Below, piece after piece: positions 18 through 5,376 of a stretch of 5,376 bases of DNA. Origin of the DNA: Campylobacterota bacterium. GTDB taxonomy: Bacteria > Campylobacterota > Campylobacteria > Campylobacterales > Sulfurimonadaceae. Positions within the stretch are counted from its first letter, which is position 1. Each line of letters begins with the position of its first letter. The stretch is from positions 1 to 5,376 of the forward strand of contig JAADDU010000044.1 in assembly GCA_013153755.1 (NCBI GenBank). The letters run 5' to 3'. Under the pieces are notes generated by a model that was not told where the DNA came from, did not search any database, and saw nothing but the letters and a program-made list of their open reading frames with translations. The translations under genes were made by a program, and so were the position numbers.

Positions 18-47
18 ATACCTATCCGTTAAGGGTAGGTATATTTT
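18..47 (+). terminator. Rho-independent terminator of an upstream gene
   Basis: Positions 18-27 (ATACCTATCC) pair with 33-42 (GGGTAGGTAT) to give a 10-bp stem with one T-G wobble and a 5-base loop (28-32). A T-rich run (44-47, then ATTTTA-like sequence) follows on the + strand. The other side of the stem is not T-rich when read on the minus strand, so the terminator most likely acts on a + strand gene that ends at or before the window start. It separates the four-gene cluster from its upstream neighbour. Confidence 0.75.
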
Positions 48-213: not shown

Positions 214-1011
214 ATGACGATAATAAACAAAACTATGAAAAATATCAATATGGCTATACTTGCATTAGCTTTCCCACTGTTAAGTGTAGCTCAATCTCAT
301 GCTACAGCAGAAGATGTACATGAGATTATTGATATATGTACTTCTTCAGAGAGGATTATGAAAGATTATGCACTTCTTGGTATGAGAGTTACATACCATA
401 ATCCTAAAAAAGATTTAGATGAAACAGTTAAGCATTTGGATGAAGAGATGGAAATGCTAGAAAAACATCATCTTGCAGAATCTTTACATGAAGAAGAGGT
501 TGCTTTACACAAACTTTGGGCAGAGATAGAACACAATCTTACTCAAACACCAAATAAAGCAAATGCATTAGAGTTGAAACATAAGGTAGATGCTTTTGCT
601 CAAAAATGTGAAGAGGTTGCTGAAGATTTGGCAAAAGATACAGGCAACAAGGCAGAACATGATGTTGTACTTATAGCTAGATTGAATCTAGATGTACAAA
701 AATTAGCTGGTGCATATGTGATGAAAGCTTGGGATGCGATAGGAGATGATGAGTACTATAAGGGTGTTAAAGAGATCAAAGAAGATTATCAAAAAACTTT
801 TGAAGAGCTAGAGAGTGCTGATGATTCATTGGTATCTAAAAAAGTCAAACAACATTTAAAAATAGTGGATAAACATTTTATGATGTTTGAGTTTATGGCT
901 GAAAGTCGATCTGGTAGATTTGTTCCACAGCTTATAGCTAAAAAAGCAAATAAGATAAATGATGAAACTGAAAAGATACTAAAAGAAGAAGAGCAAGAAA
1001 AAGAAAAATAA
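214..1011 (+). CDS. Exported tandem PilJ/NarX-like helical sensor protein
   Basis: A 265-residue exported protein, probably a soluble periplasmic ligand-binding or signalling partner of the kinase at 2620; exact function unknown. Residues 8-30 form a signal peptide with a hydrophobic core (13-25) and possible cleavage after A26 or A30. The rest is predicted helical, with no further membrane span and no output domain. Two copies of a NarX/PilJ-type module are visible. In copy 1 (about 34-142), SSERIMKDYAL (44-54) corresponds to the family's GRQRMLSQR-type first helix, and a later helix carries W102. Copy 2 (about 150-258) starts with LDVQKLAGAYVMKAW (159-173). The family's conserved Arg position holds R47 in copy 1 and K163 in copy 2. 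The only cysteines, C42 and C132, recur in the next gene's product and could form a disulphide. The tail is highly charged (KEEEQEKEK). It is first in the cluster, 18 bases before its paralogue. The domain assignment is by eye; a lineage-specific helical family is the alternative. Confidence 0.7.
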   Translation: MTIINKTMKNINMAILALAFPLLSVAQSHATAEDVHEIIDICTSSERIMKDYALLGMRVTYHNPKKDLDETVKHLDEEMEMLEKHHLAESLHEEEVALHKLWAEIEHNLTQTPNKANALELKHKVDAFAQKCEEVAEDLAKDTGNKAEHDVVLIARLNLDVQKLAGAYVMKAWDAIGDDEYYKGVKEIKEDYQKTFEELESADDSLVSKKVKQHLKIVDKHFMMFEFMAESRSGRFVPQLIAKKANKINDETEKILKEEEQEKEK

Positions 1012-1029
1012 AAATATAGAAGGAAAATA

Positions 1030-1818
1030 ATGTATACCAAAACTATTTTAAAATGTTTAAAGTATAGTTTTGTACTAATGAGTTTTACTATTAGTGTAAA
1101 TGCAAATGCGACACCTGAAGATGTGCATAAGATTATAGATATTTGTGCATCATCTCAAAAAGTGATGAAAGATTATGCATTGATTGGGATGAGGATTATT
1201 TATCATGATCCACAAAAAGACTTAACAAGTACTTTGAAGCATTTAGATACAGAGATGGATGAGTTAGCATCACATCCATTATCTAAAAATTTACATGAAG
1301 AAGAGTTACAGTTGCAAAAAGGATGGCAACAGATAGCTAGAGCATTGCTTAAAAAGCCATCCAAAAAGACAGCGATAGAACTTAGACATGAAGTTGATGA
1401 TTTTGCTAATCAGTGTGAAAAGGTAGCTTCTGATATCGCTACAGATACAAACAATGATGCAGAAAATGAGATAGTTCATATCTCTAGATTGGATTTGGAT
1501 GTTCAAGAGTTGGCTGGTGACTATGTGATGAAAGCATGGGATGCTATGAGTGATGATGAGTACTATAAAGATGTACATGAGATAAAAGAGGATTATCAAA
1601 AAGAGTACAATTTATTGGAATCTGCCGATGATAAACTTGTATCTGAAAAGATAAAAAAGCATTTAAAAATGCTTGATAAACAGTTCATGATGTTTGAGTT
1701 TATGGCAGAGAGTCACTCTGGAAGATTTGTTCCCTTGTTGATAGCTAAAAAAGCAGATATTATACATGCAAAAACAGTTGAAATTTTAAATGAAGATGAA
1801 AGTGAGGAAGAAAAATGA
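1030..1818 (+). CDS. Paralogue of the preceding exported PilJ/NarX-like protein
   Basis: A 262-residue exported protein. From residue 28 it aligns without a gap to residue 31 onward of the preceding product: about 149 of 235 positions identical (63%) by hand count. The signal peptide is unrelated in sequence (hydrophobic core about 12-23, likely cleavage after A25 or A27), so the mature region is what is conserved. The same two NarX/PilJ-like copies are seen. SSQKVMKDYAL (41-51) starts copy 1 and LDVQELAGDYVMKAW (156-170) starts copy 2. The family Arg position is K44 in copy 1 and E160 in copy 2, a charge change from the sister protein. C39 and C129 match C42 and C132 of the sister; C9 lies in the signal peptide. 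Near-invariant stretches between the two include DDEYYK (175-180) and FMMFEFMAES (219-228). GAAGGA (1019-1024) is five bases before the start. The stop overlaps the next start as ATGA (1815-1818), indicating translational coupling. The role is presumably like its sister's but with a different ligand or partner preference; this is inference. Confidence 0.7.
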   Translation: MYTKTILKCLKYSFVLMSFTISVNANATPEDVHKIIDICASSQKVMKDYALIGMRIIYHDPQKDLTSTLKHLDTEMDELASHPLSKNLHEEELQLQKGWQQIARALLKKPSKKTAIELRHEVDDFANQCEKVASDIATDTNNDAENEIVHISRLDLDVQELAGDYVMKAWDAMSDDEYYKDVHEIKEDYQKEYNLLESADDKLVSEKIKKHLKMLDKQFMMFEFMAESHSGRFVPLLIAKKADIIHAKTVEILNEDESEEEK

Positions 1819-2576
1819 GAAAATATTTAAACAAAAAAGTATTGGTAGTAGCAGTTGGGTTGGCGCTTAGTAGTAGCCTTTATGCAAAAGAGGTGGAAAA
1901 TAAAGCAGTTGTTTATGCTGAAACGATAAAAACATTATCACAAGATATTGCTAAAAACTATTTTTATGTGGCAAAAGATATTCAAGTATCATCAGCAAAA
2001 AAAGGCTTGAAAAAAGATATTATTGTACTAGATGACACATTAAAAAAGCTTCAAGAGTCAAGTAAAGATCCTGCAACTCAAAGAGTTGTAGAGTTTATGC
2101 TTTTTAGTGTTGATGAACTAAAATCCACACTAAAAGATAAGTATAATGCTGAAAATGGTGGTATGGTTCTAGACTATACAGAAACACTACTTGAAGGTTC
2201 TGAAAGTATTATCAAGCACCATAAAGGTAAAGATACTACCGTTTTAGATGAATTAGAAGAGATGGAGTTTTTGCTAGAAAGAGCTTCTAAATACTACATT
2301 GCATTTGCGGCTGGTTATACAGATGATTCTAACTTGAAACAAGCAAAGCTTGCTGTTGAAAAGTTTGATAAACTTCTTAATAAGATCAATAATGTGAATT
2401 TCCCAGCAAATATAAAAAATGGACCACTTAAAAAGTTAAATAAATACTGGCCTGTCAGTAAAGACTTTTATCTAGGATTGAAACAAAATGAGTTGCCAAC
2501 AATCGTATTTATATCAACAAAACATATGATGAAATCATTAGAAAAAATGATAGCCTATGAGAAGAGTAAAAAATAA
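1815..2576 (+). CDS. Exported PilJ/NarX-like helical protein, third member
   Basis: A 253-residue exported protein, more distant from the two before it. The signal peptide spans residues 1-24 (KK, then a hydrophobic core at 9-22, cleavage after LYA, A24). No later membrane segment and no output domain. The PilJ-like signature is clearest here: TLSQDIAKNYFYVA (40-53) resembles RMLSQRMAKAYLLVA of the family, followed by a long helix with LDDTLKKL. A second copy begins near FLLERASKYYIAFAAG (152-167), continues with a FDKLL helix (184-188) and a W212-containing helix, and closes with a helix ending in YEKSKK. The family Arg position reads K39 in copy 1 and E151 in copy 2. There are no cysteines, unlike the two upstream products. 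Translation is coupled to the preceding gene (ATGA overlap), with AGGA at 1805-1808 as ribosome binding site. The likely role is a third periplasmic component of the same sensing system. Function is inferred from context; the fold assignment is moderately confident. Confidence 0.7.
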   Translation: MRKYLNKKVLVVAVGLALSSSLYAKEVENKAVVYAETIKTLSQDIAKNYFYVAKDIQVSSAKKGLKKDIIVLDDTLKKLQESSKDPATQRVVEFMLFSVDELKSTLKDKYNAENGGMVLDYTETLLEGSESIIKHHKGKDTTVLDELEEMEFLLERASKYYIAFAAGYTDDSNLKQAKLAVEKFDKLLNKINNVNFPANIKNGPLKKLNKYWPVSKDFYLGLKQNELPTIVFISTKHMMKSLEKMIAYEKSKK

Positions 2577-2577
2577 A

Positions 2578-2595
2578 ACTATATTATCTTATAGT
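2578..2595 (+). other. Weak AT-rich hairpin before the kinase gene
   Basis: ACTATA (2578-2583) and TATAGT (2590-2595) form a perfect 6-bp inverted repeat around a 6-base loop in the 43-base gap between the third exported protein and the kinase. There is no T-run after it, so it is not a convincing terminator. It could slow transcription or protect an upstream transcript end. TATAGT also looks like a -10 box, but no -35 partner is evident. It may be chance in such AT-rich sequence. Confidence 0.25.
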
Positions 2596-2619
2596 ATGTT
2601 AAAATATAAGGATATCTAA

Positions 2620-5376
2620 ATGGCAAGAAAGTCAAAAAAGATCAATTTTTTACTCATGTTAGTACCAGTACTTATGTTGCTAGGTATAGCTGTATATTTT
2701 ACTATAGATGAGTCTAAAAAATTTATCAATAATATGGTTGCTGTAAAACATATACAAATGTTTCAGCAACTAGACAATATAGAAAAAAAAGTTGTTGAAG
2801 AGGCTGTATGTACGTCATACTCAAAAGGTATAGATGAAGATAGCAAAGAGTACTGTAAAAAACAAAGAGAAGCAACAGATAAGATATTGTTGCAACCATA
2901 TAGTAGTACGGGTATAAACTCTTATCTTGAAAAGGCTATAGTATCTGTTTTACCACAAGAGGAGTCTACAGATACTCAAAATGCTTTGGATACTATATCA
3001 ACAATACGTAAAAAAATCAAAAATATTAGATATGATATAGATACAGCATCTTCTGTAAATATAGATACAGTGTTTAATAACTCTTATAAACAGTATATCT
3101 TAGATCCCCTATATAAAGATATGCAAGCTTTTGAAACAAAGCATTATTTTAACACAAATGCAAATTGGATTGTGTTTGCAAAAAAACTTTTAGATAGCAA
3201 GTATAATACTGACTATGAAAATATTTTTGTAACATATTATCTAGCTACGAAAGAGCCTATGAGTGAAAAACACTTAAGAGAGTGGGATCAGTTTATTCGT
3301 TTTTCTGATATATCATATATACCATCCTTTGAATCAGCTGGTATGCAACAAATCTTGCGTAAACTAACATCAAAAACAAGTTTTGAAGAGATAAATAATG
3401 GTATAGAAGATATACGTATCGACTTAATCTCTAACCATACCACAGGAGAGTATACAACCAATATAGAACTTTGGAGAGATTTTATCGGACTAAAAGAAAA
3501 AATCATATCAGAGCATATGGATTTTATCTCTCATAATTTGCTTACTATTGTATCTAAAGAGATGAAGAAGCATGAACAAATATTTTGGATAGCTCTTGCA
3601 TCTGTTCTATTGAGTTTGTTCTTTATGATATATATCATCCGTTCTTATCGTATAGCAAAAGAGGAGGATCTAGCTCTTAGTAAAGTTCTCTCTGGTATTG
3701 AGAAAATCTCTGAAGATAAACACTTGGATTTGAAAAGTGAGCTTGAACTTCCAGATCTAAACAACAAAAAAGAGGTTTATGCATATCTAGAGAAAGTGTT
3801 TGAGTTACTTGAAGAAAAAGAAAGAGAGATAGCTCAAGCAGAAGATGCAAATGCAGCGAAAAGTCTTTTCTTGGCAAATATGTCACATGAGATTAGAACA
3901 CCACTTAATGGTATCGTAGGTTTTGCTGAATTGCTACATGAAACACCTTTAAATAAAGAGCAAAAAGAGTTTTTAGATATTATAAAAAAGAGTTCAGAAC
4001 ACTTACTTAGTATCATCAATGATATACTTGACTTTTCGAAAATTGGTGCAGGACAACTTGAGATAGAAGAGGTAGAGTTTGAATCATTTGAAACATTTGA
4101 ATCAGCTGTAGAATCATATGCGGCAAAAGCATTTGATAAAAATATAGAGCTAGGTGTTTATATAGAGCCTTCAATACCTCAAAGACTTATAGGTGATCCA
4201 ACTAGGGTTTCTCAAGTTTTACTAAATCTAATCAGTAATGCAACAAAGTTTACAAAAGTAAATGGTGCTATTGATGTTTTTATAGAAAAAGTTTCTGAAG
4301 ACGATGAAAATATAGAATTGAAATTTGTTGTTAAAGATACTGGTATAGGTATCTCAGAAGAGCAAAGACAAAAAATCTTTGAGGCATTCTCTCAAGCTGA
4401 CATATCAACAAGTCGTGAGTATGGTGGTACAGGTCTTGGTTTATCAATCTCTGGACAGTTAGTATCAAAAATGGGTGGTAAGCTAGATGTTGAGAGTACT
4501 GTAGGAAAAGGGTCATCTTTCTTCTTTACTTTGAAGTTTAGAAAAGTAGAAGGAGAAGAGAAAGAACCGTATGCTCATAAATACAAAGGTCTTAAAGTTG
4601 GATTTGTTTTACCTTCAGAAAATGTTTATAGACAAATAGATATTAATCTTATAGCATATTTTGATTATTTGGGTGTTGACTTTAGGATGTATTATGGAGA
4701 TGAGATATTTAATATTGATAAATCTGATATGCCTGAAGTTCTTTTCTTTACACAAAAATATACTCAAAATCAAGAACAGTTGGAAAGATACTTGTCTTTA
4801 CCTACAAAACTTGTGCTATTGACAACAGGAGAGATGCAAAGAGATTATCATGTACCGCTTGATAGGGTAACAAAGATTATATATAAACCTATCAACTTTA
4901 GTAAGATTATCTCTACTCTTGAAACATGTACTTCTGCAGATTTGGAAAATAAAACTAAAACTATAGAGTATATGCATAATAAGTTTAAAGATTTGCATGC
5001 TCTTGTGACAGAAGATAATGTTATCAATCAAAAGCTTATAAAAAGAGTTTTAGAAGATTTTGGATTGCAAGTTAGTATAGCAAATAATGGTAAGGAAGCA
5101 CTCAATATTCTTGAAAAAGAACATGATAAGTTTGATATAATCTTTATGGATATACAAATGCCAGTAATGGGTGGTATAGATGCAACTCAACATATCATAG
5201 AGTTTGAAAAAGAAAAAGGTTTGAAGCATATACCTATAGTTGCATTAACAGCTAATGCACTGCAAGGAGATAGAGAAAAATATCTGAATGCTGGTATGGA
5301 TGATTATGTATCTAAGCCTATTGAGTTGAAAAGTATACAAAATATTTTAAAGAAATACTTTTTAGATAAAGAGGTT
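2620..5376 (+). CDS. NIT-like hybrid sensor histidine kinase (3' partial)
   Basis: An inner-membrane hybrid histidine kinase; 919 codons are visible and the frame is still open at the window edge. AAGGA (2608-2612) lies seven bases before the start. Helix 9-29 and helix 321-341 enclose about 290 periplasmic residues. This sensor resembles the NIT nitrate/nitrite module: [11 protein letters not shown] (80-90) fits its QR..TD helix, and a late ELWRDF...LKEKI segment fits its W-containing helix. Periplasmic C64 and C79 could pair. A charged linker and coiled coil (about 345-415, possibly a degenerate HAMP) leads to HisKA with [10 protein letters not shown] (phosphorylated H423). The ATPase follows: N536/N540 in [17 protein letters not shown] (573-578), FEAFSQAD (587-594), GGTGLGL (602-608). 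Residues 655-770 look like a receiver that has lost its phosphorylated Asp (T711 in its place) but keeps K756-P757. The final receiver is intact: E798/D799, D844 in MDIQMP, T877, K899. An HPt domain or a stop may follow outside the window. It probably phosphorylates a downstream regulator or relays through an HPt protein. Its three exported neighbours suggest periplasmic input partners. Kinase assignment is certain; the NIT assignment is by eye. Confidence 0.93.

Follow-up and report, generated by a model that had tools for sequence, protein, structure and literature searches.

Exported PilJ-like proteins encoded beside a NIT-like hybrid histidine kinase: a conserved cassette and candidate split receptor of Campylobacterota

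Among the separate-receptor kinases considered here, LuxQ, TorS and QseE have, to our knowledge, one partner each; LuxP and TorT have periplasmic-binding-protein folds, one per kinase, NreA is located in the cytoplasm, and we know of no PilJ modules in QseG. In LuxP-LuxQ and TorT-TorS a separate periplasmic protein is reported to convey the signal to the kinase (PMC8534201), in QseG-QseE an accessory protein acts on a four-helix-bundle kinase sensor (PMC12691602), and in NreA-NreBC a separate nitrate receptor protein controls the kinase (PMC8199190). The four-helix-bundle nitrate sensor of NarX and NarQ is built into the kinase itself. McpN of Pseudomonas aeruginosa (6GCV), a chemoreceptor, is reported to bind nitrate via Arg61 of the N-box motif, its R61A variant showing no binding, and the modules of the PilJ receptor, which lack the N-box, are reported not to bind nitrate (PMC6381276). 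NasR (4AKK) is described as a one-component antiterminator composed of NIT and ANTAR (PMC7496416). Here we describe a 5,376-nucleotide stretch of a Campylobacterota genome (GCA_013153755.1, contig JAADDU010000044.1; hereafter the window), in which genes for three exported proteins with PilJ-like modules (P1, P2 and P3) precede a gene for a hybrid histidine kinase with a NIT-like sensor region.

The soluble proteins resemble McpN in their four-helix-bundle PilJ module, and most of their wider P1-type relatives keep the N-box; McpN, however, holds one module inside a chemoreceptor, whereas here the proteins are free, exported and composed of two modules, with cysteine in place of the arginine in the branch to which the window belongs. 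The modelled periplasmic part of the kinase is similar to the NIT domain of NasR, but exported proteins and a membrane kinase take the place of a single regulator. LuxP-LuxQ and TorT-TorS differ in that here one to six helical-bundle proteins accompany a kinase, QseG in being an outer-membrane lipoprotein and a single partner, NreA in being a GAF-fold protein without PilJ or NIT modules, and NarX/NarQ in the integration of the sensor, the window kinase moreover having no listed HAMP match. Periplasmic kinase partners, PilJ modules and NIT modules are each known, and their combination appears new: the initial annotation knew of no named system of this composition, and we found none joining free PilJ proteins to a NIT kinase in the titles and opening abstract text of the listed open-licence articles of PubMed Central (PMC), the subscription literature lying outside this scope. 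We consider it rather probable that the products of the operon make up an extracytoplasmic receptor divided among several proteins, whose soluble sensors dock on the NIT-like region of the kinase and set its activity. Judging from sequence comparisons, most such receptors are best read as being of nitrate or N-oxide type, and the one in the branch of the window as having an altered site for its ligand or for redox chemistry.

The four genes lie on one strand, separated by 18, -4 and 43 bases (Table 1), so that the order and direction described in the initial annotation are borne out by the open reading frames (ORFs). P1 and P2 are 58% identical. Hydropathy analysis revealed an N-terminal peak in P1 and P3 and no second above-threshold segment in P1, P2 or P3. 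The signal peptides proposed for all three are backed by hydrophobic N-termini with AxA-like ends, as judged by eye; the hydropathy scan did not support that of P2, which fell below the threshold used. In the kinase two segments exceeded the threshold (approximately residues 5-31 and 318-346), and HisKA, HATPase_c and receiver domains scored above the Pfam cut-offs, which makes the protein a hybrid histidine kinase and agrees with the motifs noted earlier. About 100-180 C-terminal residues probably lie outside the window, since five of the six other kinases related by sensor region measure 1018-1098 amino acids, the sixth being a 602-amino-acid piece. P1, P2 and P3 are listed with an 8041-base contig and the kinase with one of 5376 bases; a longer contig of the locus may exist.

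Table 1. Positions of the features of the operon and of the residues discussed, numbered from the first base of the window
Feature	Position	Strand	Basis
Terminator-like hairpin upstream of operon	18..42	+	Consensus scan, 10 pairs; consensus match only
P1, exported soluble double-PilJ-like protein, 265 amino acids	214..1011	+	ORF, alignments, model
P1 Cys42, in place of nitrate-binding Arg (McpN R61)	337..339	+	Alignment A4, N-box
P1 Cys132, second invariant Cys	607..609	+	Alignments
P2, exported P1 paralogue, 262 amino acids	1030..1818	+	ORF, alignment
P2 Cys39, equivalent to P1 Cys42	1144..1146	+	Alignment A4
P2 Cys129, equivalent to P1 Cys132	1414..1416	+	Alignment A4
P3, exported soluble PilJ-like protein of a second family, 253 amino acids; gene adjoins kinase	1815..2576	+	
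Hybrid histidine kinase, 919 amino acids visible, open at base 5376	2620..5376	+	ORF, Pfam domains
NIT-like periplasmic sensor region flanked by two membrane helices (residues 32-317, approximate)	2713..3570	+	Hydropathy, model, NasR match, NIT in relatives
Kinase Cys64, branch-invariant	2809..2811	+	14/14 vs 0/30 other kinases with a residue there
Kinase Cys79, branch-invariant	2854..2856	+	14/14 vs 0/30 other kinases with a residue there
His423, HisKA phospho-acceptor (SHEIRTP)	3886..3888	+	HisKA 413-478; invariant in 46 kinases
Asp844, receiver phospho-acceptor (MDIQMP)	5149..5151	+	Receiver 795-910; invariant in 46 kinases

These genes recur together as a conserved cassette. When the genome collection was searched for the P3 family, ten loci were found (given below as L numbers): eight have the order P1-type, P3-type, kinase, one begins inside a P3-type gene followed by the kinase, and the tenth (L010), from a gammaproteobacterial metagenome-assembled genome (MAG), has a P1/P3 pair without a kinase. 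Another 50 regions were taken from the hit lists of genomes matching the P3 family, giving 60 loci in total. These contain 66 runs of soluble-protein genes, of which 52 lead directly into a kinase gene, three stop at a contig end and 11 end otherwise; among the latter, the kinase of L072 follows a P3-type gene apparently missed by ORF picking, and the next gene in L066 encodes a membrane sensor that lacks the kinase core. Multi-gene runs directly precede a kinase in 49 of 58 cases, and a kinase immediately follows 48 of 182 soluble-protein genes vs 0 of 493 other genes of the same loci. A P3-type gene stands last before the kinase, and 6-20 bases separate the two in 41 of the 52 runs. Usually one or two P1-type genes are followed by two P3-type genes and the kinase, while the window has two P1-type genes and one P3-type gene; runs vary from one soluble-protein gene (L062) to six (L049).

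The same linkage is seen at the level of whole genomes. L003 belongs to the Sulfurovaceae; among 175 genomes of that family, 81 matched the P3 family, nine of them at E < 1e-100 (next best, 2.8e-59); in the wider phylum the P3 family was found in 16 of 397 genomes, 13 of which also belong to the family set. The kinase sensor was matched in all 81 P3-family genomes vs 74 of the 94 without (hypergeometric, 1.4e-6), and the distances of P3-type proteins and kinase sensors correlate (r 0.87, 48 pairs, 0 of 4999 permutations, no correction for shared ancestry). An exported partner is encoded with the kinase across genomes, as expected of a kinase with a LuxP-LuxQ-type accessory sensor. Co-occurrence with nitrate reductases, a check suggested in the initial annotation, was examined for NapA, which scored above the cut-off in 63 of the 81 P3-family genomes vs 46 of the 94 others (p 9e-5, odds ratio 3.65); when partial hits are included, the counts are 68 of 81 vs 57 of 94 (p 7.5e-4). 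These figures are uncorrected for kinship and MAG completeness. On the whole, the survey confirmed the initial observation, the cassette order recurring in other genomes beyond chance.

The identity of the modules in the window rests on relatives and structural models, because its own proteins fall under the Pfam cut-offs. In the predicted structure of P1 alone, the leader is followed by eight long helices that we interpret as two four-helix bundles (predicted local distance difference test score, pLDDT, 90.8); the model resembles the bundles of McpN, PilJ, NarQ and NasR, consistent with a PilJ-type fold. The Pfam PilJ profile (PF13675) gave 14.6 bits on P1, below the cut-off of 26.6 (E 0.035), and did not match P2 or P3. 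In two scanned sets of wider relatives it matched 53 of 81 proteins and 27 of 62, respectively, at E <= 0.01 (best, 9.5e-25 and 1.1e-22), the P1-type protein of L010 exceeds the cut-off with 38.8 bits, and both modules of the P3 family align with those of the P1 family (hhalign probability 99.7, E 8.6e-26). Similarly, the NIT profile (PF08376) did not match the window kinase up to E 10 and reached E <= 1 in 25 of the 46 related kinases (best, 9.9e-15), and the model of the periplasmic part resembles the NIT domain of NasR with its two-bundle fold. No HAMP domain was listed after the second membrane helix up to E 10, at which level HMMER filters drop most weak matches. Both module assignments of the initial annotation, PilJ-like and NIT-like, therefore hold at the family level as judged from profiles and predicted folds, without a profile match above cut-off in the window itself. 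Two observations on domain architecture may be added. A 553-amino-acid exported-looking protein (L126:6627-8288) appears, by eye, to have four N-box-like modules in a single chain. In L123:6750-8288, L124:8863-10494 and L066:3534-4802 the last cassette gene keeps the sensor while the kinase core is unrecognisable or partial, and these proteins are possible pseudokinases.

The N-box, taken as [IVL][ND]xAGxQRML[ST]Q, is absent from P1, P2 and P3. P1-type proteins of the wider loci have it in strict form in 29 of 65 cases and with at most one mismatch in 58, at least two sites being present in 54 of 65. Among P3-type proteins, those of the wider loci that do not adjoin a kinase carry the strict motif in 42 of 51 cases, and those adjoining a kinase in none (0 of 40 in the wider loci, 0 of 8 in the branch); by sequence, its absence from the latter is general and not a mark of the branch. 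As kinase-adjoining P3-type proteins all lack the N-box, this suggests that P3-type proteins are adaptors. P3 position 39, which corresponds to the N-box Arg, is Lys in 46 and Arg in 14 of 65 proteins, the Gly and Gln of the motif are gone from P3, and the second modules of P1 and P2 also lack the N-box Arg.

In P1 and P2 the position of the nitrate-binding Arg is occupied by Cys. Four alignments were considered: A1 (58 P1-family hits less two short ones), A2 (69 P3-family hits less four short ones), A3 (five of the seven first-found kinases and 41 of 49 long kinases, the two omitted first-found kinases also showing both Cys by eye) and A4 (40 of the 56 rows of A1 and 41 further proteins). The Arg position in the 81 rows of A4 is Cys in 45, Arg in 34 and another residue in two, and a second Cys is present in 45/45 Cys rows and 0/36 others. 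P1-type proteins of at least 230 amino acids in the 60 loci have the Cys pair in 10 of 13 cases in branch loci and in 0 of 65 elsewhere; the three exceptions are in L004 and in the separate reversed pairs of L006 and L008. The kinases of the branch invariably have Cys64 and Cys79, two rows of the 46 being gapped in this comparison, and Arg at residue 62, which we take to be part of the ER motif of NIT helix 1, occurs in 0 of 14 branch kinases vs 19 of 30 others. Exactly two Cys were found in 56/56 mature P1-family proteins and in 14/14 branch kinase sensors. Matched pairs, in a P1-type protein and the adjoining kinase, occur in the window and seven loci (L001-L003, L006-L009); an eighth such locus is apparently divided between L005 and L058. 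The Cys kinases form one group (SH-aLRT approximate likelihood ratio support 99) that includes one partnerless kinase. The Cys sites of the branch may serve as redox switches, form a new site for a ligand or be no more than disulfides.

We infer docking, the roles of the subunits, the ligand, the direction of control and the output in the following scheme, which draws on the observed gene order, conservation and residue swaps and on the predicted folds. P1, P2 and P3, as exported double four-helix-bundle proteins, would bind the kinase at its NIT-like periplasmic part and pass their binding or redox state to it, P1-type proteins being the likeliest ligand readers and P3 the likeliest adaptor; phosphate would then move from His423 to the receiver Asp844 and from there to a partner whose gene lies elsewhere. 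In the wider family, P1-type proteins with an N-box would read nitrate or a related N-oxide. The branch of the window would most likely respond to another signal, thiol- or redox-linked, or have its sites held in disulfides, because Cys42 (with Cys132) replaces the nitrate Arg and the kinase gained Cys64 and Cys79. A more specific version, in which a standing nitrate/N-oxide receptor of Sulfurovaceae was re-tooled in this branch into a periplasmic thiol receptor (for redox, NO, peroxide or sulfane sulfur), is doubtful. The multi-component receptor proposed at the outset gains support from the cassette linkage and the matched residue changes; contact, ligand and signalling are its conjectural parts.

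The system would be of interest in several respects. Several soluble proteins per kinase would mean several inputs and one output, and up to six related helical sensors before one kinase, as in L049, would read several ligands or affinities. With the Arg-to-Cys swap, a change of signal accompanied by matching changes in the parts of a receptor could be tested in a clear-cut case. The cassette, whose hosts are sulfur-oxidising bacteria, has the look of a nitrate-type receptor whose parts have become separate proteins and is a candidate nitrate/N-oxide sensor for a phylum in which NarPL-type regulators are reported not to be conserved; Nss-type regulators of Wolinella, for which marine relatives have similar genes, are reported to respond to nitrate, NO and N2O (PMC6682613).

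Several findings weigh against a split receptor. Thirteen of the kinases examined have the same sensor and no adjoining soluble-protein gene (L121, whose upstream side is cut, was excluded); eight form a group of about 880 amino acids, shorter than the cassette kinases (L112-L117, L127, L128), and three instead adjoin a receiver-only gene and genes for proteins that look PAS-like by eye. A sensor of this type therefore does not always need soluble partners, and this is the chief objection to a strict two-part mechanism. In a tree of 59 kinases the partner labels require five changes, the minimum possible being two, and the kinase of L129, inside the Cys branch, has no soluble partner and retains both Cys. 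Conversely, the kinase of L004 has Cys64 and Cys79, and the adjoining P1-type protein lacks both Cys. The 11 runs of 66 without a kinase directly downstream, the gammaproteobacterial pair included, point the same way, and the Cys pairs, exactly two residues per protein, could be plain structural disulfides. In addition, the loci were picked from hit lists, several come from close relatives (e.g., L006 and L008), and the NapA and distance correlations are uncorrected for shared ancestry or MAG incompleteness.

If the partnerless kinases are taken at face value, the kinase could sense alone via its NIT-like region, the soluble proteins being co-transcribed periplasmic carriers or scavengers (of nitrate, nitrite, NO or a redox partner) and making no contact with it. 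Soluble-protein genes without an adjoining kinase (the second pairs of L006 and L008, L010, L052, L056, L057, L063) would also fit, but the short distance between the P3-type gene and the kinase (6-20 bases in 41/52 runs), the kinase-sensor match in 81/81 P3-family genomes and the matched changes in soluble protein and kinase make this unlikely. CpxP is an accessory protein of the inhibitor or stress-gauge type, and the soluble proteins could act like it or like QseG, the envelope state rather than a small ligand setting their binding to the kinase and the Cys pairs reporting periplasmic redox state or misfolding. The invariance of these pairs in the branch and the peroxidase gene upstream of some cassettes (see below) are in line with this, as is the report that the lipoprotein QseG activates QseE, which has a four-helix-bundle sensor, with the proposed participation of two conserved arginines (PMC12691602); we nevertheless regard it as improbable, since the N-box with at most one mismatch in 58 of 65 wider P1-type proteins speaks for ligand binding there. 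Finally, the Cys might form structural disulfides only, the branch still binding nitrate or nitrite by other means, such as the Lys or Arg of P3 (46 and 14 of 65 proteins). The count of exactly two Cys per protein is what this would predict, yet P3 lacks the N-box Gly and Gln, the motif is found in 0/8 branch and 0/40 wider kinase-adjoining P3-type proteins, the second modules of P1 and P2 have no Arg, and Arg62 is missing from all 14 branch kinases vs its presence in 19 of 30 others, so that we give this explanation little credence as well. The split receptor stays the preferred reading.

Neighbouring genes point to N-oxide and peroxide respiration but do not establish a ligand. In nine of the 60 loci the cassette is directly preceded by a cytochrome c peroxidase gene, upstream sequence being absent from some of the 60; the nine genes (L006, L007, L008, L009, L051, L058, L068, L076, L096; Pfam-checked in L006 and L096) form one cluster, and five belong to the Cys branch. 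The first 213 bases of the window leave no room for such a gene upstream of P1. Genes for a FIST protein and a soluble hybrid kinase occur near the cassette in L004, L059, L062, L081 and L094, in some cases with a lone receiver, a LuxR-type regulator or a weakly matching Hpt-like gene (E 0.002, below the cut-off), one copy of each gene type having been checked against Pfam. As FIST proteins of the NosP kind are reported to sense NO for a partner kinase (PMC12570481), this neighbourhood is possibly an NO branch with a phosphorelay output.

Among the loci outside Campylobacterota, the gammaproteobacterial MAG has its Cys-type P1/P3 pair convergent with VWA, NorQ-type and COX3 genes (L010:9021-15485), which by sequence are read as NorD-, NorQ- and NorE-like; a Crp-type regulator lies some distance away, and a protein of about 950 amino acids with a weak kinase-sensor match (E 3.7e-10) is encoded elsewhere in the genome. 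Two other gammaproteobacterial genomes encode a single soluble N-box-like protein (L135:7465-8244, L136:7839-8618), with no other soluble-protein gene or kinase match in the region read. In two cassettes a P3-type gene is present twice with a P1-type gene between the copies (L049:7287-9703, L061:5556-7998); the copies are identical at 261 of 262 and 277 of 277 residues, respectively, possibly as a result of recent duplication, gene conversion or an assembly effect.

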